NCBI RefSeq assembly: GCF_001429395.1
Contig: NZ_LMJT01000012.1
Coordinates: 245,482-309,481 of the forward strand
Reading direction: 5' to 3'
Length of the DNA: 64,000 nucleotides
Origin: Allobosea sp. Root381
GTDB taxonomy: Bacteria > Pseudomonadota > Alphaproteobacteria > Rhizobiales > Beijerinckiaceae
Every line of letters begins with the position of its first letter. Position 1 is the stretch's first letter. The translations under genes were made by a program, and so were the position numbers. This document shows positions 10,164-43,139 of this stretch, piece by piece. The notes beneath the pieces were generated by a model. The model searched no databases. It was given only the letters and a program-made list of their open reading frames with translations, and was not told the origin of the DNA.

Positions 10164-11344
10164 CCACCGCCGTCCTGATCGCGGTGACGCATCTGCTCGG
10201 CAGCGGGCATCTGGTGCGGGCGGCGCATCTGGCGCGGGCTCTGGCGGAGCACGGCTTCGCCGTCACGCTCGCCAGCGGCGGCATGCCGTTGCGGGGGATG
10301 GCGGCCGAGCCCTTCGATTTCGTGCAACTGCCGCCGGTGAAGGTCGAGGGCGTCGATTTTCGCAACCTGCTCGATGAGGAGGGCCGCCCGGTCGATACGG
10401 AACGGCTGACGGCACGCAGGGCCATGCTGGACGGGCTGGCGGCGTCGCTCCGGCCCGGCGTCGTCATCACCGAGCATTTCCCCTTCGGCCGCCGGCAGTT
10501 GGCGGAGGAGTTTCTCGCCCTGATCGGCGCGGCAAAGGCCGCCGATCCCAGGGCGCTGGCCCTATCTTCGGTGCGGGACGTACTGGTGACGCCGCGCCCA
10601 GAGCGGATCGCGGAGGCCGAGCGGCGCCTCGCCGAATATTTCGACGGAGTGCTGGTTCACGGCGATCGCGATTTCCTGCCGTTGGAGGCCTCCTGGCCGG
10701 TGTCGCCGGAGCTGGTGCCCCGTCTGCATTACACGGGTTATGTCGCGGCGGCTCCCGCGAGCCCTCATCCTGAGGAGCGCCGTAGGCGGGCCTCGAAGGA
10801 TGAAGGCTTGGAAGGGGAGGGCGAGATCCTGGCGTCGGGAGGCGGTTCGGGGGCGGCGCTGCCGCTGTTCCGGCTGTGCCTCGAGGCCGCGCGGCTGTCC
10901 AGGCGGCGCTGGCGCCTGCTCGCGGGCCGCGGCCTTGCCGAAGCCGATTTCGTCGCCCTCCGGGAAGCCGCCTCGCCGAATGTCACCGTCGAGCGGGCGC
11001 GCCCGGATTTCCCCGACCTGCTCGCCCGCTGCGCCCTCTCGATCAGCCAGGCCGGCTACAACACCGTGCTCGATCTGGTGGCGGCCGCCCGCCCGGCGAT
11101 CGTCGTGCCCTTCGACGAGGGGGGCGAGACCGAGCAGGCGGTCCGGGCGCAGGCGATGGAGCGGGCGGGGCTGGCGCGATGTCTGCGGCTTTCGGACGAG
11201 GCCGCGGCGGCGCCGGCGGCCTTCGCGGCTGCGGTAGAAGCGGCGCTGAGGCGCCCGCCGCCGGCTGCCCTCGTAATCGACCGCGACGGGGCGGGCACGG
11301 TCGCGGGCATCGTGCAGCGGCTTCTGGCTGAGCGGGCTAAGTGA
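10160..11344 (+). CDS. MurG-like predicted glycosyltransferase (COG4671 type) with an in-frame palindromic repeat insertion
   Basis: 394 residues. The N-terminus (VTHLLGSGHLVRAAHLARAL) is the glycine-rich HLxGxGHxxR loop of MurG-like GT-B enzymes, and the C-terminal donor domain includes LLARCALSISQAGYNTVLDL and IVVPFDEGGETEQ, close to the MurG G-G-x-N-T and ExEQ sites. Between the two domains, around residues 200-222, the reading frame runs through a repeat translated as PHPEERRRRASKDEGLEG, which matches another repeat copy at 35.7 kb and is not expected in the enzyme. The insertion keeps frame and sits in the interdomain linker, so the enzyme may still work. It is the last gene of the cluster and starts by ATGA overlap. 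Confidence 0.8.
   Translation: MTTAVLIAVTHLLGSGHLVRAAHLARALAEHGFAVTLASGGMPLRGMAAEPFDFVQLPPVKVEGVDFRNLLDEEGRPVDTERLTARRAMLDGLAASLRPGVVITEHFPFGRRQLAEEFLALIGAAKAADPRALALSSVRDVLVTPRPERIAEAERRLAEYFDGVLVHGDRDFLPLEASWPVSPELVPRLHYTGYVAAAPASPHPEERRRRASKDEGLEGEGEILASGGGSGAALPLFRLCLEAARLSRRRWRLLAGRGLAEADFVALREAASPNVTVERARPDFPDLLARCALSISQAGYNTVLDLVAAARPAIVVPFDEGGETEQAVRAQAMERAGLARCLRLSDEAAAAPAAFAAAVEAALRRPPPAALVIDRDGAGTVAGIVQRLLAERAK
10760..10812 (+). repeat. Palindromic repeat (PHPEER family), half copy inside a gene
   Basis: The sequence begins CCCTCATCCTGAGGAGC and ends with GCCTCGAAGGATGAAGGC. The same two blocks occur, in the same order and similar spacing, in the larger copy at 35743-35868. Here it lies in frame within the MurG-like glycosyltransferase. 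Elements of this type, reading PHPEERR..ASKD, recur in many Hyphomicrobiales genomes. Confidence 0.8.
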
Positions 11345-32743: not shown

Positions 32744-32967
32744 ATGCTGCGCTCCCTCCGCACAGATAGCCAGACCGACAGTGCAAGGATAACCTGCATC
32801 CGGCGCTGGTCTACCTCCGGCAGCGGGATGGCGCGCTGCGTTGACGGAATGTCCGTGCCGCATCGCCTGGCCCCGCCATGGGGCGCCGTTTGCCCTCGCT
32901 GCTCGCCTCGACCTCGCGATCCGCGCGACGATTCTTGACATCGCGGCGCGCGCGCCTTCATGCTGGA

Positions 32968-33079
32968 CGCGTTCCCAGGGGGGCCTCGCTAGGAGGCTGA
33001 GATTCCGCCCGTCCAGCGATGCCGGACAACGCGGTGACCCTCCGAACCTGATCCGGTTCATACCGGCGTAGGGATGCGG
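32968..33079 (+). promoter_or_regulatory. TPP (THI-box) riboswitch
   Basis: All conserved TPP-aptamer blocks are present in order: CCAGGGGGGCC, GGCTGAGA (32995-33002), a variable arm, GACCCTCCGAACCTGATCCGG (33036-33056) and ATACCGGCGTAGGGATGCGG. The 5' CGCGTTCCC pairs with 3' GGGATGCG to close P1. Binding of thiamin pyrophosphate would normally switch off the genes downstream. The next genes on this strand, from 33.2 to 39.1 kb, are closely spaced and end with a ThiXYZ-type importer and a reductase, so the whole set is expected to be induced in thiamin shortage. No clear terminator stem follows, so control of translation is possible. Confidence 0.95.
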
Positions 33080-33191
33080 GACATCGGTGCGGATCGCCGC
33101 CCCTTTTCCATGCTTTCGCGTCGGCCGGATTCGCGGTCTCGTGCCAGGCATTCCGCCTGTCCGCGAAGCTTTGCGGGAAAGTGTGGCTGAC

Positions 33192-34268
33192 GTGACGGAA
33201 GCGCAGATCATCGAGGCTTTGCTGGGCTTCATCGACCAGGGCGAAGCCTCCGAGGCGGAATTCGAGCGGATGGCGCTCGCCGTCTTCGCCTATCAGTTCG
33301 CGAACAACCAGTCCTATCGCCGCTTCGCCATCCAGCGTGGGCGCACCACGCTGACGGTGAGGAACTGGCGCGACATCCCGGCCGTGCCGATCACCGCCTT
33401 CAAGGACCTGACGCTGAGCTGCTGCGCGCCCGAGGCGGCAGAACGCATCTTCATGACGAGCGGCACGACGCAGGGGCTGCGCGGCCGCAGCCATCATCCG
33501 ACGCTCGCGGTCTGGGACCGCTCGATGCTGGTGAATTTCCGCCGCCGCTTCATGCAGGGCACGAAGCGCATCCGCATGGGCATCCTGTTCCCGGACGAGG
33601 CGGCGATGCCGAACTCCTCGCTGGCGCGTTACCTTGCGCTGGCGCAGCGCGAATGCGGGGCGGCCGGAAGCGCGGGTTTCGTCGGGCCGCAGGGGCTCGA
33701 CGTGGTCGGCGTGATTGCCGCGCTGACCCAGGCCGAGGCTTCCGGCGAACCCTACGCGCTGCTCGGCGCGAGCTGGAGCTTCGTACATCTGCTCGATGCG
33801 CTGACGGGGCAGGGGCGCCGCTTCGCCCTGCCCGAGGGCAGCCGCATCCTCGACACCGGCGGCTTCAAGGGCCAGTCGCGCGAGATGGGCGCCGATGCCT
33901 TCTACGATGCGCTGTCCGCGACCTTCGGCGTGCCGCGCAACCTCTGCATCAACATGTACGGCATGACCGAACTCAGCACGCAGTTCTATGACGACGGCAA
34001 CGCCGTCTGCCCGCCGGTGAAATCAGGCCCGCACTGGATTCGCAGCCGGGTGGTCGATCCGGTGAGCGGGCGGGACCTGGCCGAGGGCGCGACAGGCGTG
34101 CTGGTCCATCACGACCTCGCCCATTTCAACTGCGCCTCGGCGATCCTGACGGAGGATGCAGGCGTCATGGTCGAGGGCGGGTTCAAGCTGCTCGGCCGCG
34201 TCGACGGCGCCGATTCCAAGGGCTGCTCGCTCGCCGTCGAGGAGTTTCTGAAGGCGGCGCGGGGCTGA
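33192..34268 (+). CDS. LuxE-like acyl-protein synthetase (adenylate-forming enzyme) under TPP control
   Basis: About 358 residues from GTG 33192. LuxE family (PF04443), related to acyl-CoA ligases: IFMTSGTTQGLRGRSHHPTL near residue 88 is the phosphate-binding motif, MYGMTELSTQFYDDG near 255 is the aromatic-TE motif. In luminous bacteria LuxE activates a fatty acid with ATP and passes it to LuxC; here no luciferase genes exist. The substrate is likely another carboxylic acid. The start is uncertain: GTG 33087 lies seven bases after the riboswitch without a ribosome site; GTG 33183 and 33192 have GGGAAAG upstream. It is followed three bases later by the LuxC-like gene, as in lux operons. Confidence 0.88.
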   Translation: MTEAQIIEALLGFIDQGEASEAEFERMALAVFAYQFANNQSYRRFAIQRGRTTLTVRNWRDIPAVPITAFKDLTLSCCAPEAAERIFMTSGTTQGLRGRSHHPTLAVWDRSMLVNFRRRFMQGTKRIRMGILFPDEAAMPNSSLARYLALAQRECGAAGSAGFVGPQGLDVVGVIAALTQAEASGEPYALLGASWSFVHLLDALTGQGRRFALPEGSRILDTGGFKGQSREMGADAFYDALSATFGVPRNLCINMYGMTELSTQFYDDGNAVCPPVKSGPHWIRSRVVDPVSGRDLAEGATGVLVHHDLAHFNCASAILTEDAGVMVEGGFKLLGRVDGADSKGCSLAVEEFLKAARG

Positions 34269-34271
34269 TCC

Positions 34272-35723
34272 GTGAACTTGTTCGCCGGACATCTGCCGGG
34301 GATTGCCGCGACCGAGGTCGAGTGGCGGCGGCTGGACTTTTCTGCCTGGGGTGAGGGCGTCACGGTCGATGTGCCCTTGCTGAGCGAGGCCCAGGGGCTC
34401 GCTCTGGCCGCGAGGGTCAGGGAGAATGCACGCAGCTATCTTAAGACGCTCCCCGTCGCCGAGATCGTCGCGACCATCGACAAGGCGATCGCGCGGCTGC
34501 TCGACCGCGAGGACCCGTTGCGCCGGCAGGCGGAAGCGCTGCTGCCGGTGGTGACCGGCTATGACGCGGAGACGGTGAGGCTCGGCCTGTCCGGCTATCT
34601 CAGGACCTTTCGCGCACCTCAGCTGCAGCGTTTCCTGGCCGAGGATTTTGCCAATCCGGGCGTGCTCGATGGCTTCCAGCCTGCGATGAAGGGTGGCTTC
34701 GCCCGCGCCCATGGTCCGGAGCTCCTGCTCCACATCTGGGCCGGCAACGTGCCGGGCCTGTCGCTCTGGAGCCTGATCTCCGGCCTCCTGGTCAAGGCCG
34801 GCAGCATCGGCAAGGTTGCCAGCGCCGAACCATTGCTCGCCGGTTGGTTCGCGCAGATCCTGGCCGAAATCGATCCGAGGCTCGGAGAATGCCTCGCCAT
34901 CGTCTGGTGGAAGGGTGGGGATGCCGCAAGCGAGCAGGTCTGGCTGAACCAGGCGGACACGATCGTCGCCTATGGTGGCAACGATGCGTTGGCGGCGATC
35001 CGCGAGCGCGCCCCGATCACGGCGCGCTTCCTGACGCATGGCCACAAGATCGGTTTCGGCGTGGTCTCGGTGGCGGCACTCGATGCGCGCAAGGCCGGCG
35101 CGCTCGCCCGCCTCTGCGCCCATGATGCGATGCGCTACGAGCAGCAGGGATGCTACTCGCCGCAGATGCTGTTCGTTGAGCGCGGCGGCAAGGTCTCGCC
35201 CCGAGAATTCGCCGAAATGGTTTCGCGGGAGCTCGCCGCCTTCGCGCGCCGGCATCCGCGCCGGGCGCTGTCGGTTGCGGAGGCGGCCGGCGTTGCCGCC
35301 TGGCGCAGCGGTGAGGAGATGCGGGCTTTCGACAACGAGGGCAGGCTCGTCCTCGGCGATGCGGAGGATGGCTGGAGCGTCGTCCAGGTCGATGCGGCCG
35401 AGCCGCTGGCGCCGAGCGGGCTGAACCGCACGCTCAAGATCGTCGCTGTGGAGAGCCTCGACGCCGTCGTGCCGCTGGTCGCGCCGTTCCGGTCCTTTCT
35501 GCAAAGTGCAGCGATCGCGGCCTCCCCGGAGGAACTGTTCCGGATCGCCGCGCTGCTGGGCGAGGCCGGCGTGACCCGCATCGCGGCCTTCGGGACGATG
35601 ACTGCGCCCGAGGCCGGCTGGCATAATGACGGGCGCTTCAACCTGCTCGACCTCGTGACCATCACCGAGATCGAGCACTCGGCCGAGCTCGCGGCGGAAG
35701 CGTTCGCACCCTATGTCGATTGA
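34272..35723 (+). CDS. LuxC-like acyl-CoA/acyl-protein reductase
   Basis: 483 residues, PF05893 (LuxC). This NADPH-dependent enzyme family takes an acyl group from a thioester or from LuxE and reduces it to the aldehyde. The catalytic cysteine is visible in YEQQGCYSPQMLFVE (about residue 294), and the cofactor region in HIWAGNVPGLSLWSLISGLL. GTG start. With the LuxE-like neighbour it makes a complete carboxylate-to-aldehyde pair. It lies in the TPP-riboswitch transcript, before a thiamin-precursor-type importer, and overlaps the importer's ATPase gene by 11 bases. Confidence 0.9.
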   Translation: MNLFAGHLPGIAATEVEWRRLDFSAWGEGVTVDVPLLSEAQGLALAARVRENARSYLKTLPVAEIVATIDKAIARLLDREDPLRRQAEALLPVVTGYDAETVRLGLSGYLRTFRAPQLQRFLAEDFANPGVLDGFQPAMKGGFARAHGPELLLHIWAGNVPGLSLWSLISGLLVKAGSIGKVASAEPLLAGWFAQILAEIDPRLGECLAIVWWKGGDAASEQVWLNQADTIVAYGGNDALAAIRERAPITARFLTHGHKIGFGVVSVAALDARKAGALARLCAHDAMRYEQQGCYSPQMLFVERGGKVSPREFAEMVSRELAAFARRHPRRALSVAEAAGVAAWRSGEEMRAFDNEGRLVLGDAEDGWSVVQVDAAEPLAPSGLNRTLKIVAVESLDAVVPLVAPFRSFLQSAAIAASPEELFRIAALLGEAGVTRIAAFGTMTAPEAGWHNDGRFNLLDLVTITEIEHSAELAAEAFAPYVD

Positions 35724-36633
35724 GCGCCATCCCCCACCCTTCAGCCCTCATCCTGAGGAGCGGCGAAGCTGCGCCTCGAAGGATGTTCCAAGCGGTTCCG
35801 GAGCCTCCGGGAGCATCCTCCGAGACGCCATTCCCAAGGGACTGGCTCCTCAGGGTGAGGGCTTAGATCACGCACGAGGGAGGCAGCGAGAGACCTTCGT
35901 CGCGATCGAGGCTGCCCGCTACGGCTACGGCACGGGGCCGGCGATCGTCGACGATGTCGACTGGACGATCCCGTGCGGCGCATTCCACGGGCTCGTCGGC
36001 CGCAGCGGCAGCGGCAAGACCACATTGCTCAAGCTGGCCGCCGGTCTGCTGCAGCCTGAGGCCGGTCGCGTCCGCATCGACGGCGCGCTCCTGAGCGGGC
36101 CGGGGCCGCGGATCGGCTTCGTCTTCCAACAGCCGACGCTGCTCGACTGGCTCAGCGTCGCCGACAACGTGCTGCTGCCGATATCGCTGAAGCGCCGGCC
36201 TCGTTCGGAGGATCGCGATCGCGCGCAGACCCTGCTCGAGCTGGTCGGGCTGGGCGCCCTGGCGCATCGCCATCCCGGCCAGCTCTCGGGCGGCCAGCAG
36301 AGTCGGGTCGCCGTGGCGCGAGCCCTGGTCGCGGAGCCCGACCTGCTGCTGCTCGACGAACCTTTTGCTGCGCTCGACGCGCTGACGCGGGAGGAACTGC
36401 AGGATGACCTGCTGGCGCTCTGTGCGCTCAAGGCCACCACAGTGCTCTTCGTCACCCACGACATCGGCGAGGCGGTCTATCTTTCCGACCGGGTCGCGAT
36501 CATGGCGGCCGGACGGCTGCATCACGCGCTCGATGTCGCGCTGCCCCGGCCGCGTCGGCGCGAGATGCGCTACGAGCAGCCCTTCAACGCGCTCTGCCGG
36601 GAACTCCGGCAGGCGATGGACGAAGCGTCATGA
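35713..36633 (+). CDS. thiZ: ThiZ-like ABC importer ATP-binding protein with repeat-encoded N-terminus
   Basis: 306 residues. The ATPase is complete: Walker A GRSGSGKTTLLKLA, Q-loop VFQQPTLLDWLSV, signature LSGGQQSRVAVARAL, Walker B LLLLDEPFAALDAL, switch histidine VTHDIGEAVYL. This is the nitrate/taurine/HMP importer class. The ABC domain begins only at about residue 60 (FVAIEAARYGYGTGPAIVDD). The leader before it is encoded by a palindromic repeat and reads SPHPEERRSCASKD, not a protein domain. The only upstream start in frame is ATG 35713, which has no good ribosome site; it may be reached by coupling from the luxC-like gene. Its stop overlaps the permease start (ATGA). Confidence 0.88.
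   Translation: MSIERHPPPFSPHPEERRSCASKDVPSGSGASGSILRDAIPKGLAPQGEGLDHARGRQRETFVAIEAARYGYGTGPAIVDDVDWTIPCGAFHGLVGRSGSGKTTLLKLAAGLLQPEAGRVRIDGALLSGPGPRIGFVFQQPTLLDWLSVADNVLLPISLKRRPRSEDRDRAQTLLELVGLGALAHRHPGQLSGGQQSRVAVARALVAEPDLLLLDEPFAALDALTREELQDDLLALCALKATTVLFVTHDIGEAVYLSDRVAIMAAGRLHHALDVALPRPRRREMRYEQPFNALCRELRQAMDEAS
35743..35868 (+). repeat. Palindromic repeat (PHPEER family), full copy
   Basis: Begins AGCCCTCATCCTGAGGAGC and ends CTGGCTCCTCAGGGTGAGGGCT, which are near-perfect inverted repeats. Inner blocks CGCCTCGAAGGATG and GCATCCTCCGAGACGC are also mirror images. The element lies between the start codon and the ABC domain of the ThiZ-like gene and is open in that frame. A half copy is at 10760-10812. 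Confidence 0.88.
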
Positions 36634-37379
36634 GCTTGCGTCTCGCCTCCGCCCTGCTGCTGGTCGTCCTCCTCGGTGCATGGGAGGCTTATTGCCGGCT
36701 CGGCAGCGTGCCGGCGCTGATCGTGCCGGCGCCGTCCTCGGTCTTCGCGACCTTGTGGGGCGAGATCGCGAGCGGGCGGCTCTTGCCGCATCTGTGGGTC
36801 ACCGCGGCGGAGATGGCGCTCGGCCTCGCCCTGGGCTGTGCGGTCGGGCTCGGCACCGGCATTCTGCTGGCGGAGGCCCCGGTCCTGCAGCGCATGCTGC
36901 ACCCTTACATCGTCGCGAGCCAGGTCGTGCCGAAGCTCGCCCTCGGCCCGCTCTTCATCATCTGGTTCGGCTTCGGCATGGCGCCAACCGTGGTGATCAC
37001 GGCGCTGATCTGCTTTTTCCCGCTGATGGAGAACACCCTGACCGGGCTGTCGCAGGTCGATCCCGGGCGGCGCGAGCTGTTCCGCATGCTTGGCGCCGGC
37101 CGCCTGCAGACCCTGTTGCGGCTGAAGCTGCCGAGCGCGTTGCCTGTGGTTCTCGCAGGGCTTCGCGTCGCGGTGGTGCTCTCGCTGGTCGGGGCGGTGG
37201 TCGGCGAGTTCATCGGCGGGCGGGAGGGGCTCGGCGCCTCGATCATCGCGGCCCAGAGCGTGATGGATTCGAGCCTGATGTTCGCGCTGTTCATCGTGAT
37301 CACGCTGCTCGGAATGCTGTTCTACCAGGCGACGCTGATGCTCGAGCGGCTGCTGCTGCGCCACCATCTGAAAGGATAG
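36630..37379 (+). CDS. thiX: ThiX-like ABC importer permease
   Basis: 249 residues, BPD_transp_1 family. About six membrane helices, starting at SLRLASALLLVVLLGAWEAY. The EAA loop that contacts the ATPase is FRMLGAGRLQTLLRLKLPSA. IVPAPSSVFATLWGEIASGR is typical of the SsuC/TauC/ThiX class that imports small sulfonates or pyrimidines. Overlaps the ThiZ-like gene by ATGA and precedes the binding protein by four bases. With a TPP riboswitch upstream, HMP or a related thiamin precursor is the natural cargo. Confidence 0.92.
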   Translation: MSLRLASALLLVVLLGAWEAYCRLGSVPALIVPAPSSVFATLWGEIASGRLLPHLWVTAAEMALGLALGCAVGLGTGILLAEAPVLQRMLHPYIVASQVVPKLALGPLFIIWFGFGMAPTVVITALICFFPLMENTLTGLSQVDPGRRELFRMLGAGRLQTLLRLKLPSALPVVLAGLRVAVVLSLVGAVVGEFIGGREGLGASIIAAQSVMDSSLMFALFIVITLLGMLFYQATLMLERLLLRHHLKG

Positions 37380-37383
37380 GCCG

Positions 37384-38367
37384 ATGCTTCGCCATTCCCG
37401 CCGCCATATGCTCGCGTTGCTTGGCGCGGTCCTGATCGGCACCGCACCGCTTCAGGCCCAGCCCCTCGACAAGGTCACCGTGGCGGGCTGGAGCCAGCCG
37501 ATCAGCGAGATCACCAATCTGCTGGCCGAGCCGGACAAGGGCTTCTTCAAGGCGAAGGGCATCGAGCTTGGCTATGTGCCGGGCACCGGTGGCGGCTCGG
37601 CGATCCAGAACATGCTGACGGGGCAGGCCGACATCGCCTTTACCGATCCGGCCGCCTTCTATCTCGCGCTCGACAAGGGCGAGAAGCTGGTCGCGATCTA
37701 CAACATCTACCCGCAGAACGTCTTCAACGTGGTCGCGCCGAAGGCCAAGGGGATCAAGGGGCCAGCCGATCTCAGGGGCAAGCGTGTCGGCGTCTACAGC
37801 CTGTCGAGCGGCACGCGGCAGAACCTGCAGGTGCTGCTGCACCAGGTCGGGCTGACCGAGAAGGACATCGCCATGGAAGTGACCGGCCTGCTCAACTTCG
37901 CGCCGCTGATCCAGGACCAGGTCGATGCCACCGCCGCGACCGATACCGGCCTGCTGGTCGGGCGGATGAAGGGGCTCCCCGAGGTCGATGTGATCGAGGT
38001 GAAGGACCATCTCAACCTGCCGAGCGACATCTTCGTCGTGACGCAGGCGACCTATGAAGCGAAGAAGCCGCTGCTGAAGCGCTTCCTCGCGGCCTATCGC
38101 GACAGCGCCGCCTGGATGATCGCGAAGCCCGAGGAGGCGGCGAAGATCGCCGTGACGCGCGCGATCAACGGCCGCGACGAGGCGCTGAACCTCGGGATCA
38201 TCAAGCTGCGCAACGCCTCTAGTGTGTCGCCGACCACCGATGCGAAGGGGCTCGGGCATTTCGACATGGAGCCGATGCAGAAGGGCGCCGACACCTTCCA
38301 CAAGCTCGGGCTGATCGCAAAGCCGCTCGACATGGGGCAGGTGGTGAAATCGGACCTGATCCCGTGA
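37384..38367 (+). CDS. thiY: ThiY-like (NMT1/THI5-like) periplasmic binding protein
   Basis: 327 residues with a Sec signal (HSRRHMLALLGAVLIGTAPL, cleavage near LQAQP). NMT1/THI5-like fold: VAGWSQPISEITNLLAEPDK, FFKAKGIELGYVPGTGGGSA, MLTGQADIAFTDPAAFYLAL. Members bind HMP-like pyrimidines (ThiY), taurine or nitrate analogues. In known ThiY proteins the CCCFC iron-pyrimidine motif of yeast Thi5 is absent, as here, so it is a binder and not an HMP synthase. Sits between permease and reductase in the riboswitch operon. Confidence 0.92.
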   Translation: MLRHSRRHMLALLGAVLIGTAPLQAQPLDKVTVAGWSQPISEITNLLAEPDKGFFKAKGIELGYVPGTGGGSAIQNMLTGQADIAFTDPAAFYLALDKGEKLVAIYNIYPQNVFNVVAPKAKGIKGPADLRGKRVGVYSLSSGTRQNLQVLLHQVGLTEKDIAMEVTGLLNFAPLIQDQVDATAATDTGLLVGRMKGLPEVDVIEVKDHLNLPSDIFVVTQATYEAKKPLLKRFLAAYRDSAAWMIAKPEEAAKIAVTRAINGRDEALNLGIIKLRNASSVSPTTDAKGLGHFDMEPMQKGADTFHKLGLIAKPLDMGQVVKSDLIP

Positions 38368-38377
38368 GGCGAGAGCC

Positions 38378-39145
38378 ATGAAGTTTCGCGACAGGACGAT
38401 CCTGGTCACCGGCGCCAGCCGCGGCATCGGGGCCGCCATCGCCAGGGCCTTCGCCGCCGAGGGCGGGCTGGTCTTCGTCAACTACCGGCGCAGCGAAGCG
38501 GAGGCGCAGGCGGTGGTCGAGGCCTGCCGGGCGGCGGGCGGGCAGGCGCTGGCGATCGCGGCGGACGTCACCGTTCCGGCCGAGGTCGAGGCGATGCTGG
38601 CGCGCATCGGCGAGGAGGCCGGCCGGCTCGATGCGGTCGTCAACAACGCCTTCGCGCCTTACGTCTTCGACCCGGAGGCTCGGGCGCGCTTCTGGGAGAC
38701 GCCGTGGTCGGCCTATCAGGCGCAGGTCGATGGTGCGCTGAAGGCGACCTATAATGTCTGCCAGGCAGCGTTGCAGCTGATGCGCAGGCGTGGGCGCGGC
38801 GCCATCGTCAACATCGCGACCGACCTCGTGGCCCGGCCGAGCATTCCCTATCACGACTACACGACGGCCAAGGCGGCGCTGGTCGGCTTCAGCCGCAATC
38901 TCGCCGCTGAGCTCGGGCCCCTCGGCATCCGCGTCAACTGCGTCGCGCCGGGGCTGGTCTGGCCGACCGGCGCCAGCCGCCGCACGCCGGAGGATGTCAA
39001 GGAGGCGCTGATCGCGCAGACGCCGCTCGGGCGCATCGCGACGGCGGAGGATGTTACGGGGCCTGTACTGTTCCTGGCCTCCGACTGGAGCGGCTTCGTC
39101 ACCGGCCAGACGCTGCATGTCGATGGCGGGCTGGTGATGGGCTAG
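38378..39145 (+). CDS. SDR-family reductase ending the TPP operon (OarX-like)
   Basis: 255 residues, FabG-like short-chain reductase: TGASRGIGAAIARAFAAEGG, NNAFAPYVFDPEARARFWET, YTTAKAALVGFSRNLAAELG with the YxxxK pair. The expected catalytic serine position reads threonine (NIATDL). From memory, 3-oxoacyl-ACP-reductase-like genes (called oarX) have been noted among THI-box-regulated genes, which fits. After LuxE/LuxC-type acid-to-aldehyde reduction, this enzyme could make the alcohol. Ten bases after the binding-protein gene. Its TAG stop and the stop of the converging gene share the palindrome CTAG at 39142-39145. Confidence 0.88.
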   Translation: MKFRDRTILVTGASRGIGAAIARAFAAEGGLVFVNYRRSEAEAQAVVEACRAAGGQALAIAADVTVPAEVEAMLARIGEEAGRLDAVVNNAFAPYVFDPEARARFWETPWSAYQAQVDGALKATYNVCQAALQLMRRRGRGAIVNIATDLVARPSIPYHDYTTAKAALVGFSRNLAAELGPLGIRVNCVAPGLVWPTGASRRTPEDVKEALIAQTPLGRIATAEDVTGPVLFLASDWSGFVTGQTLHVDGGLVMG

Positions 39146-41481
39146 CTGCCTGCCGCCTGCGCATCCCTGATCGCCCGCCAGATCTTCGCCGGCGTCGCCG
39201 GCATGTCGAGATGGGTCACGCCGAGCGGGCGCAGCGCGTCGAGGATCGCATTCATCACCGTCTGCGGCGCGCCGATGCAGCCGGCCTGGCCCGAACCCTT
39301 GACGCCGAGCGGATTGGCCTTGGTCGGAACCTCGACCATTTCGAGATCGAAGAAGGGCAAGTCGTCGGCGCGGGGCATGGCGTAGTCCATAAAGGTCGCG
39401 CTCAGCAATTGCCCGGAATCGGGATCGTAGAGAGCCTCCTCCAGCAGTGCCTGGCCGATGCCCTGCGCCAGACCGCCATGGACCTGGGATTCGGTCAGCA
39501 GCGGGTTGACCAACGTGCCGTAGTCGTCGACCGCGACATAGCGCTCCAGCGAGATCGCGCCGGTTTCCGGATCGATCTCGACCTCGGCGACCTGGGCGCC
39601 GTTCGGGAAGGTGATGACGTCGCAGACATTGTCGCCATGGCTTTCGAGCGCGGCGCCCGTGCTGTCGCGGACATGCCGGGCTATGGCGAAGAGGTCGATC
39701 TCGCGGGCGAGCCCATCCCTCTCTGCGGTGGCGCGGAAGCGGCCATCCGCGAACTCCAGCCGATCGGCCGAGACCTGTAGCAACTGCGCTGCGGCGGGCC
39801 GCGCCTTGGCGATCAAATCGTCCGCGGCCATCACCAGCGCCGTGCCGCCGAGATGCAGCGAGCGGGCGCCGCCATGGCCGCCGCCGCGCGGCACGCGGGC
39901 GGTGTCGCCCTGCACCAGGTTGAAGGTCTCGACGGGCAACCCAAGCCGTTCGGCCGCGACCTGGGCGAAGCTGGTCTCGTGGCCCTGGCCGTTCGACTGC
40001 GTGCCGACCGCCATGTCGATGGTGCCGTCGTCATGCATGCGCAGCCAGGCTTCCTCATCGGGCTGGCCGCGCGAGGTTTCGAGAAAGCAGCTTATGCCGA
40101 AGCCGCGCAACTTGCCGCGCTTCTTCGCGGTGCGCCTGCGGGCGGCGAAGCCCCCGCGGTCGGCAGCCAGCAGCACCTTGTCGAGATTCTCGGTGAAGGT
40201 ACCGCAGTCGATCACGGTGCCAAAGGCGGAGCGGTAGGGGAATTTGCGGATGAAATTGCGCTTGCGCAGCGTGGCGGGATCGATGCGCAGCTGATGGGCG
40301 GCAGCCTCGATCAGGCGCTCGATCAGGTAGTTCGCCTCCGGCTTGCCGGCACCGCGATAGGCGTCGATCGGCGCGGTGTTGGTGAAGACGCCGCGCACGT
40401 CCATCGACATGGCGGGGATGTCGTAGAGCCCGCCCATCGCCGCTGAGGGTGCATTGGTCGAGCTGCCCGGGCCGAGCGAGGAGACATAGGCGCCGAGATT
40501 GCCGATGGTCTCGACTTCGAGCGCCAGGAAGCGGCCCCGCCGGTCGAGCGCGAGACGCCCGGCGCTGAGATTGTCGCGGCTGTGGACGCCGCCGGTAAAG
40601 TCCTCGATGCGCTCGGAAATCCAGCGCACCGGCCGTCCGAGCGTGCGCGCCGCCCAGAGCACCAGCGCATATTCGGGATAGGTCACGTTCTTCATGCCGA
40701 AGCCGCCGCCGACATCGGGGCAGGAGACCTCTATGTGGTCGAGCGGCAGGCCGAAGACGCCCTGCGCCAGCTCCTGCCGGATGGCGTGGACCGAGGCGCC
40801 GCTGATCTCGAGACGGTAGACGCCGCTTCCGGGATCGAAACGGCCGAGCGCGACGCGTGTCTCCAGCGGCGCGGCGACGATGCGGTTGTTGACGAGCTCG
40901 CAGGTCACGATATGGGCGGCCCTGGCGAAGGCCTGCTCCACCGCGGCCGGATCGCCGCGCCGGAAGCGGTAGGCGAGGTTGCCGGGCGCCTCCTGCCAGA
41001 TCTGCGGCGCATCCGGCTCGGGCGCGGCGCTGAGCTCCGTGACCGAGGGCAGCATGTCGTAGTCTACCGCGATCAGCTCGCAGCCCTCGCGGGCGAGCGC
41101 GGTGCTCTCGGCGACGACGAAGGCCACCGGATCGCCGACATGGCGGACGCGCTCGCGGGCCAGCGGCAGGCGCGGCGGCACGATCAGCGGCTCGACCGTC
41201 GCCACCTTGATCGAAGTCGGCAGCGGGCCGAGGTCGGCCAGGTCGTCGGCGGTGTAGACGCCGTGTACGCCCGGCAGGGCGAGCGCCGCTGCCGTGTCGA
41301 TCGAGACGATTACCGCATGGGCGTGGGGCGAGCGCAGCACGGCGGCGAAGAGCTCGCCCGTCGCCGGGCGGTCGTCGAGATAGTCGCCCTCGCCTATGAG
41401 GAAGCGCCGATCCTCGCGCCGCCGCCGCGAACGCGGGTCCAGGGCTGCGGTCAGCGGTCGCGCGCCTTCGCCGTCATTCAT
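39142..41481 (-). CDS. Molybdopterin-binding large subunit of a xanthine dehydrogenase/CO dehydrogenase-family enzyme (orphan)
   Basis: 779 residues. Family landmarks: RRREDRRFLIGEGDYLDD, RSPHAHAVIV, CPDVGGGFGMKNVTYPEYAL, DAYRGAGKPEANYLIERLIE (form II type, not the AYRCSFR of true CO dehydrogenase). Near the C-terminus NPLGVKGSGQAGCIGAPQTV has glutamine (about residue 732) at the place of the catalytic glutamate in CoxL-type GVGEAG. No FAD or iron-sulfur subunit gene is adjacent. ATG 41481 chosen; GTG 41517, overlapping the pgi stop as GTGA, is a real alternative and would make it coupled to pgi. Substrate unknown. Confidence 0.88.
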   Translation of the reverse strand: MNDGEGARPLTAALDPRSRRRREDRRFLIGEGDYLDDRPATGELFAAVLRSPHAHAVIVSIDTAAALALPGVHGVYTADDLADLGPLPTSIKVATVEPLIVPPRLPLARERVRHVGDPVAFVVAESTALAREGCELIAVDYDMLPSVTELSAAPEPDAPQIWQEAPGNLAYRFRRGDPAAVEQAFARAAHIVTCELVNNRIVAAPLETRVALGRFDPGSGVYRLEISGASVHAIRQELAQGVFGLPLDHIEVSCPDVGGGFGMKNVTYPEYALVLWAARTLGRPVRWISERIEDFTGGVHSRDNLSAGRLALDRRGRFLALEVETIGNLGAYVSSLGPGSSTNAPSAAMGGLYDIPAMSMDVRGVFTNTAPIDAYRGAGKPEANYLIERLIEAAAHQLRIDPATLRKRNFIRKFPYRSAFGTVIDCGTFTENLDKVLLAADRGGFAARRRTAKKRGKLRGFGISCFLETSRGQPDEEAWLRMHDDGTIDMAVGTQSNGQGHETSFAQVAAERLGLPVETFNLVQGDTARVPRGGGHGGARSLHLGGTALVMAADDLIAKARPAAAQLLQVSADRLEFADGRFRATAERDGLAREIDLFAIARHVRDSTGAALESHGDNVCDVITFPNGAQVAEVEIDPETGAISLERYVAVDDYGTLVNPLLTESQVHGGLAQGIGQALLEEALYDPDSGQLLSATFMDYAMPRADDLPFFDLEMVEVPTKANPLGVKGSGQAGCIGAPQTVMNAILDALRPLGVTHLDMPATPAKIWRAIRDAQAAGS

Positions 41482-41513
41482 GGCCGATGCTCTTCTCGCC
41501 CTCCCGTGGTCGC

Positions 41514-43139
<1,626 letters not shown>

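Follow-up and report, generated by a model that had tools for sequence, protein, structure and literature searches.

The 64,000-nucleotide stretch of DNA analysed here, which we refer to as the window, comes from contig NZ_LMJT01000012.1 of Allobosea sp. Root381 (assembly GCF_001429395.1, positions 245,482 to 309,481 of the forward strand; Bosea in what follows). It carries an operon in which a riboswitch for thiamin pyrophosphate (TPP) stands before genes for homologues of the luminescence proteins LuxE and LuxC, an ATP-binding cassette (ABC) importer and a short-chain dehydrogenase/reductase (SDR). We describe this operon and its relatives, and then consider what it may contribute to the recovery of thiamin.

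The aptamer and the six genes all lie on one strand (Table 1). The spacings are 3 nt between LuxE and LuxC, 4 nt between permease and binding protein and 10 nt between binding protein and SDR, with overlaps of 11 nt between LuxC and the ATPase and 4 nt between the ATPase and the permease. The first-pass annotation of this DNA had described a complete TPP aptamer followed by six genes with gaps of 10 bases or less or with overlaps, and the Rfam and Pfam matches bear this out. The LuxE start that a mechanical open reading frame would give, at 33087, falls within the aptamer and was replaced by a homology-based GTG at 33189, about 100 nt 3′ of the aptamer; the ATG of the ATPase gene, which overlaps the luxC stop, is kept in other Bosea. 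Inside the operon we found a single promoter-like match and a single terminator-like one, both weak, and shuffled sequences gave about as many or more.

Table 1 Features of the riboswitch-headed operon, in window coordinates.
Feature	Position	Strand	Evidence
TPP riboswitch aptamer (THI element)	32967..33092	+	Rfam RF00059, 65.9 bits (gathering threshold 54.3), 105/105 model positions
Leader from aptamer to LuxE start; putative expression platform, probably translational	33093..33188	+	Folding and terminator scan; weak evidence
LuxE-like ANL-fold carboxylate adenylating enzyme; predicted C-terminal acyl-acceptor cysteine C346	33189..34268	+	PF04443, 63.4 bits (cut-off 24.9)
LuxC-like acyl-thioester reductase; predicted catalytic cysteine C294	34272..35723	+	PF05893, 280.6 bits
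ABC importer ATPase, 306 aa	35713..36633	+	PF00005 (ABC_tran)
Palindromic repeat, in frame in the ATPase N-terminus	35747..35859		Inverted copies of CTCATCCTGAGGAGC
ABC importer permease	36630..37379	+	PF00528 (BPD_transp_1)
ABC substrate-binding protein, THI5/NMT1 family, ThiY-like fold	37384..38367	+	PF09084, 151 bits
SDR oxidoreductase, proposed aldehyde reductase	38378..39145	+	PF13561/PF00106

The Bosea genome has two further TPP aptamers on other contigs, one before what we take to be a ThiO/ThiG operon and the other before presumed ThiC and ThiM-like genes (we named these genes from sequence, ThiC additionally by Pfam). Because these aptamers head ThiO/ThiG and ThiC/ThiM-like genes, Bosea looks like a thiamin prototroph in which the operon forms a third TPP-controlled unit.

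Conservation of the LuxE-LuxC-SDR core

Genes of the LuxE family are rare in the order to which Bosea belongs, PF04443 scoring above its cut-off in 1 of 199 genomes, and a LuxE orthologue was found in 34 of 67 Bosea genomes. The idea that the operon is a curiosity of Bosea alone was rejected, since one scan of species genomes returned 290 relatives. The best 80 of these 290, together with plasmid loci and loci from a class-wide sample, made up a comparison set of 88 loci. A TPP aptamer heads the operon in 86 of the 87 that could be assessed (locus L066 lies at a contig edge), distant relatives included. The LuxE/LuxC pair thus recurs under a TPP aptamer in other genomes and in two phyla, a point on which the first-pass annotation had staked its proposal beforehand. 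Since a genome holds 1-5 such aptamers, we estimate the chance of finding a random gene under one at less than about 1 in 1000. Carriers include Bosea, Azospirillum, Methylobacterium, Pantoea, Enterobacter, Polaromonas, Geobacillus, Priestia, Niallia, lactobacilli and marine Alphaproteobacteria, from habitats as scattered as soil, plants, the sea and fermented food.

In 79 of the 88 loci LuxE is preceded by the TPP core motif at a distance of no more than 400 nt. Elsewhere the aptamer precedes ThiD, which is followed by LuxE (L107, L110 and L115), or an NCS2 permease (L119 and L120); two aptamers precede ThiW-NCS2 at L122, and the aptamer of L180 was found by Rfam. Aptamers were confirmed by Rfam in diverse members, those of Priestia and one Ramlibacter metagenome-assembled genome (MAG) falling just under the gathering threshold (49.0 and 51.7 bits, respectively). 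What is constant is a core of LuxE, LuxC and SDR. The ABC importer is linked to it in 68 of the 88 loci and missing from 20, among them many from Pantoea, Erwinia and Enterobacter as well as marine ones, and in Niallia and on small lactobacillus plasmids an NCS2 nucleobase permease stands in its place.

At four Firmicute loci (Geobacillus, Priestia, Niallia and lactobacillus) a stem of 9-12 bp with a T-run lies just 3′ of an aptamer, exceeding what shuffled sequences give. An intrinsic terminator after the aptamer is what a TPP OFF switch would look like and fits a role in synthesis or salvage rather than degradation, and the riboswitch of the operon would accordingly be expected to work as an OFF switch. 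These terminators bear on the possibility that the pathway runs in reverse, oxidising 4-amino-5-hydroxymethyl-2-methylpyrimidine (HMP), the pyrimidine precursor of thiamin, to the aldehyde and then the acid. What speaks for this reading is that the SDR and LuxC reactions could in principle run both ways; however, LuxE spends ATP on activating an acid, the terminators imply that expression stops when the vitamin is abundant, and the operon occurs in genomes without ThiC. We consider a degradative role the least probable of the explanations weighed here.

In the Bosea leader a terminator scan found no intrinsic terminator. Its start codon is predicted to be paired in a hairpin, a weakly supported arrangement in that the whole-leader z-score is not significant. 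Folding of 87 loci gave a mean start-codon pairing of 0.61 against a background of 0.60, with a slightly higher value of 0.69 for the Shine-Dalgarno region. Since the start codon is paired no more than background, its sequestration was dropped as a general explanation for Proteobacteria.

The cassette also appears to move between lineages. In a LuxE tree the Enterobacterales sequences are nested inside those of Bosea and other Alphaproteobacteria (starred node), and were therefore probably acquired by transfer. Complete cassettes are carried by large plasmids of Pantoea and Azospirillum and by lactobacillus plasmids of 10 and 21 kb; their genes are labelled in PLSDB as acyl-CoA reductase and as either fatty acid-CoA ligase or acyl-CoA synthetase. 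Sequences from the plasmid collection were left out of folding. On a Pseudomonas silvicola plasmid (CP093281.1, locus L124) the TPP motif is kept and LuxE, LuxC and SDR are each broken up by shifts of the reading frame, which may reflect decay or sequencing error.

Several local features deserve mention. In an alphaproteobacterial MAG (L087, 5642-8001) a TPP-ThiC unit lies directly upstream of TPP-LuxE-LuxC-ABC-SDR, so that two TPP-controlled units stand in tandem. At L095 (7650-8010) the gene shortly before LuxE seems to encode a methyltransferase (pcm-like in our interpretation), and in the same MAG ThiC is split by apparent frameshifts. The palindromic repeat in the Bosea ATPase adds about 50 residues, is absent from other Bosea ATPases and resembles the protein-coding palindromic elements of Rickettsia; similar elements occur in the gap between permease and binding protein at loci L037 and L039 and at window position 10764. 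Convergent with the SDR gene, and overlapping it by 4 nt, is a gene for the large subunit of a molybdenum hydroxylase of the carbon monoxide dehydrogenase/xanthine dehydrogenase type (39142-41517, minus strand). As it adjoins the operon in one Bosea subclade only, it was set aside as a member of the system.

Predicted functions of the enzymes and the importer

Retained in the LuxE homologue are two motifs, TSGTT (adenylate-forming) and YGMTE, along with D309, R337 and, at the C-terminus, C346. Both C346 of LuxE and C294 of LuxC are invariant (at least 97% of 89 sequences) and align with the catalytic cysteines of Photorhabdus LuxE and LuxC, the Photorhabdus-type reference proteins having been taken from an engineered F plasmid. 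The Y161-x3-K165 motif of the SDR (YxxxK) is likewise invariant. In a sequence search of the PDB the LuxC-LuxE structure 7xc6 was the sole match, LuxE matching chain E and LuxC chain A. By fold, an AlphaFold model of LuxE (predicted local distance difference test score, pLDDT, 87) lies nearest to PaaK-type ligases (Z 22-24), and 7xc6 is absent among the fold matches listed for it. Several PaaK-type ligases act on aromatic acids.

The family names LuxE and LuxC, and an SDR of the 3-oxoacyl-acyl carrier protein reductase kind, could be taken to indicate synthesis of fatty aldehydes or fatty alcohols as in the luminous luxCDE system, TPP control being incidental. The SDR is indeed a close relative of NCBIfam PRK08642, falling just below its cut-off (282.4 bits against 292). 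The lux equivalogs, however, are missed by far, with 66.1 of 550 bits for NF052244 (LuxE) and 78.2 of 750 for NF052251 (LuxC), and the operon contains neither LuxD nor luciferase genes, the latter absence having been noted in the first-pass annotation. Linkage to ThiD, ThiW, NCS2 and a ThiY-like binding protein, under a nearly universal TPP aptamer, also argues against such a role. On genomic context and profile scores we therefore rejected a function in long-chain lipid metabolism, which we regard as very improbable.

For the binding protein, an AlphaFold model (pLDDT 90.8) places ThiY closest (3ix1; Z 32.7, root-mean-square deviation 2.7 over 294 residues), followed by a thiamin-bound protein (4nmy, Z 31.3), yeast-type Thi5 (28.6) and the sulfonate-binding SsuA (27.5). 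Its identity to ThiY is 17-18%. The earlier designation as a ThiXYZ importer thus appears right by predicted fold, with weak sequence similarity, and would suit a ThiXYZ-type importer of a pyrimidine acid derived from thiamin. The system can do without this importer, which is missing or replaced in 20 of the 88 loci.

The proposed substrate and comparison with known systems

The first-pass annotation had left three candidate substrates: a pyrimidine carboxylate, a thiazole carboxylate and thiamin acetic acid. The genes around the core help to separate them. Three Burkholderiales share the order TPP-ThiD-LuxE-LuxC-ABC-SDR, in which ThiD, the kinase of HMP and HMP phosphate (HMP-P), comes first. 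The Niallia operon combines two TPP aptamers, ThiW (PF09512), an NCS2 permease (PF00860) and LuxE-LuxC-SDR. We take ThiW to be a transporter of a thiamine precursor, by current knowledge the thiazole, and a component of an energy-coupling factor system. As the thiazole has an importer of its own there and a nucleobase-type permease adjoins LuxE-LuxC, this arrangement points to the pyrimidine. Lactobacillus plasmids carry a similar unit, TPP-NCS2-LuxE-LuxC-SDR.

Gene content points the same way. ThiC, the HMP synthase, was absent from nine of the 50 carriers in which ThiC and ThiG were tallied, and eight of these nine have a full-length, full-strength ThiG, the ninth being an incomplete MAG of 2.5 Mb in which a second aptamer lies where a contig ends. 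None of the 50 had ThiC without ThiG. With ThiG in nearly all the ThiC-less carriers, the moiety they lack is therefore the pyrimidine. One case is OX638326.1 (a single contig of 4.15 Mb, 99% complete), which is without ThiC, has ThiD and contains exactly two TPP aptamers, one heading LuxE-LuxC-SDR and the other thiO-thiG-thiE. These results weigh on the proposal that the operon reduces 4-methylthiazole-5-acetate, a known thiamin metabolite, to hydroxyethylthiazole for use by ThiM. Its support comes from a Ramlibacter MAG, one of the three ThiD-headed Burkholderiales, where ThiO and ThiG lie downstream of the SDR. Against it stand ThiC-less carriers that are short of pyrimidine, the lack, among the 50, of any carrier with ThiC but not ThiG, and the separate thiazole-precursor component in Niallia, and we think it decidedly unlikely.

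ThiD and ThiE were each present in all 14 carriers checked for them. Their constant retention suggests that the product enters as a moiety rather than as whole thiamin, and so bears on a further explanation, in which thiamin acetic acid, a known oxidation product of thiamin, is imported and its side chain reduced back to the hydroxyethyl group. In favour of this, thiamin-bound 4nmy is one of the two structures nearest to the binding protein, and in two carriers neither ThiC nor ThiG is present. Recovery of whole thiamin would nevertheless make ThiD and ThiE needless, and it sits poorly with the TPP-controlled thiO-thiG-thiE operon kept in ThiC-less carriers, with ThiD inside the same operon and with a nucleobase permease in the importer's place; we judge it unlikely. 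As read from gene order and gene content, the genomic context favours the pyrimidine carboxylate and argues against the thiazole and whole-thiamin substrates.

Several observations weigh against a pyrimidine salvage role. Most carriers, Bosea included, have ThiC, so the pathway is not strictly needed in them. In a class-wide sample of 385 Alphaproteobacteria genomes with seven carriers, ThiC is missing from 6/7 carriers and from 256/385 genomes overall, and ThiG is kept in 5/7 and 194/385, with no enrichment in either case. Loss of ThiC was accordingly abandoned as a statistical association, and, its absence being common in the class anyway, we use it only as case logic; the statement that ThiG is always kept proved false in the same sample. 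Two carriers (G393 and G507) lack both ThiC and ThiG, and fit a supply of HMP only if thiazole is imported too. At 17 loci, from Enterobacterales and marine bacteria, LuxE-LuxC-SDR stands alone, with no linked importer to account for where the acid comes from. Among the assessable relatives, L095 is without a recognisable aptamer. Finally, resemblance to the PaaK fold is common to many acyl ligases and leaves the substrate unfixed.

In the genomes G507 and G393 a second TPP aptamer lies some distance upstream of LivKHMGF-like importer genes (L181, G507:C5:67000-75000, and L182, G393:C28:33000-42000, respectively). This importer, of the branched-chain amino-acid type, is a candidate new importer of thiamin or thiazole.

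Taking both sides together, we assign a probability of roughly 0.62 to the reading that this operon is repressed by TPP and salvages the pyrimidine half of thiamin, reducing an imported pyrimidine carboxylate to HMP. When TPP is scarce, the riboswitch would permit expression, and the pyrimidine carboxylate would enter through the ThiY-like ABC importer in Bosea, through the NCS2 permease in some Firmicutes and by another route elsewhere. The acid is most likely 4-amino-2-methylpyrimidine-5-carboxylate, a known oxidised metabolite of thiamin. The LuxE homologue would adenylate it at the expense of ATP and load it on Cys346, from which the acyl group would pass to Cys294 of LuxC and undergo NAD(P)H-dependent reduction to the aldehyde, which the SDR would then convert into the alcohol HMP. 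HMP would be phosphorylated by ThiD and joined by ThiE to thiazole phosphate, yielding thiamin phosphate. We infer the identity of the acid, the direction of the SDR step and the hand-off of the acyl group. The route from acid through aldehyde to alcohol had been proposed in the first-pass annotation as TPP-repressed thiamin salvage; the link to the aptamer holds in nearly every relative, and the substrate and the reaction stand as predictions.

As a tentative extension, which we find doubtful, LuxE-LuxC-SDR might replace ThiC in bacteria that lack both ThiC and a linked importer, supplying HMP by a third route in addition to those of ThiC and yeast Thi5. The pyrimidine carboxylate would be excreted by others or self-made, and oxidised B1 pyrimidine would be traded in sea and soil.

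If the salvage reading is true, the operon would be the first instance known to us of carboxylate reduction in the salvage of vitamin B1, and thus new chemistry in the recovery of thiamin precursors. It would give a non-luminescent job to LuxC and LuxE homologues now widely annotated as ‘acyl-CoA reductase’ and ‘long-chain fatty acid-CoA ligase’, correct the annotation of hundreds of genomes (the 290 relatives came from a single scan) and explain the pyrimidine source of some ThiC-less bacteria. It would also name a new B1-related nutrient to seek in soil, sea and food. The small lactobacillus plasmids (10-21 kb) make the cassette easy to test.

A full-text literature search of open-licence papers found no description of a role for LuxE or LuxC in thiamin metabolism, in agreement with the first-pass annotation, to which no described pathway of this form was known. 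A 2024 survey of B1 vitamers and genes gives thiV, thiY, cytX, ykoF, tenA and thiM for transport and salvage, and carboxylate-reducing enzymes are absent from its gene list (PMC10881298).

The closest known system by enzyme content is the luminous luxC-luxE fatty acid reductase (7xc6), with which the operon shares the pairing of an acyl-adenylate synthetase with a thioester reductase and both acyl-carrying cysteines. It differs in that LuxE is 22-23% identical and both proteins lie far below the equivalog cut-offs, in being TPP-controlled, in having an added SDR and no LuxD or luciferase, and in a predicted substrate that is probably a small aromatic acid rather than a fatty acid. EhpF/PaaK-type ANL adenylases give the best alignments of the LuxE model (Z 20-24), and several of them activate aromatic acids; PaaK, however, makes coenzyme A (CoA) esters, whereas the LuxE homologue has a C-terminal cysteine and a LuxC partner. 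With the ThiXYZ importer (ThiY, 3ix1) the operon has in common a THI5/NMT1-type binding protein, whose closest fold is ThiY, and TPP control, but it ties the importer to enzymes of carboxylate reduction rather than to a hydrolase or TenA, and the importer is optional in the family. Finally, the salvage by TenA of N-formyl-4-amino-5-aminomethyl-2-methylpyrimidine (FAMP) and 4-amino-5-aminomethyl-2-methylpyrimidine (AmMP), and that of thiazole by ThiM, likewise recover a damaged half of thiamin for ThiD and ThiE; these routes hydrolyse an amine or phosphorylate, whereas LuxE-LuxC-SDR would use ATP and NAD(P)H to reduce a carboxylic acid.

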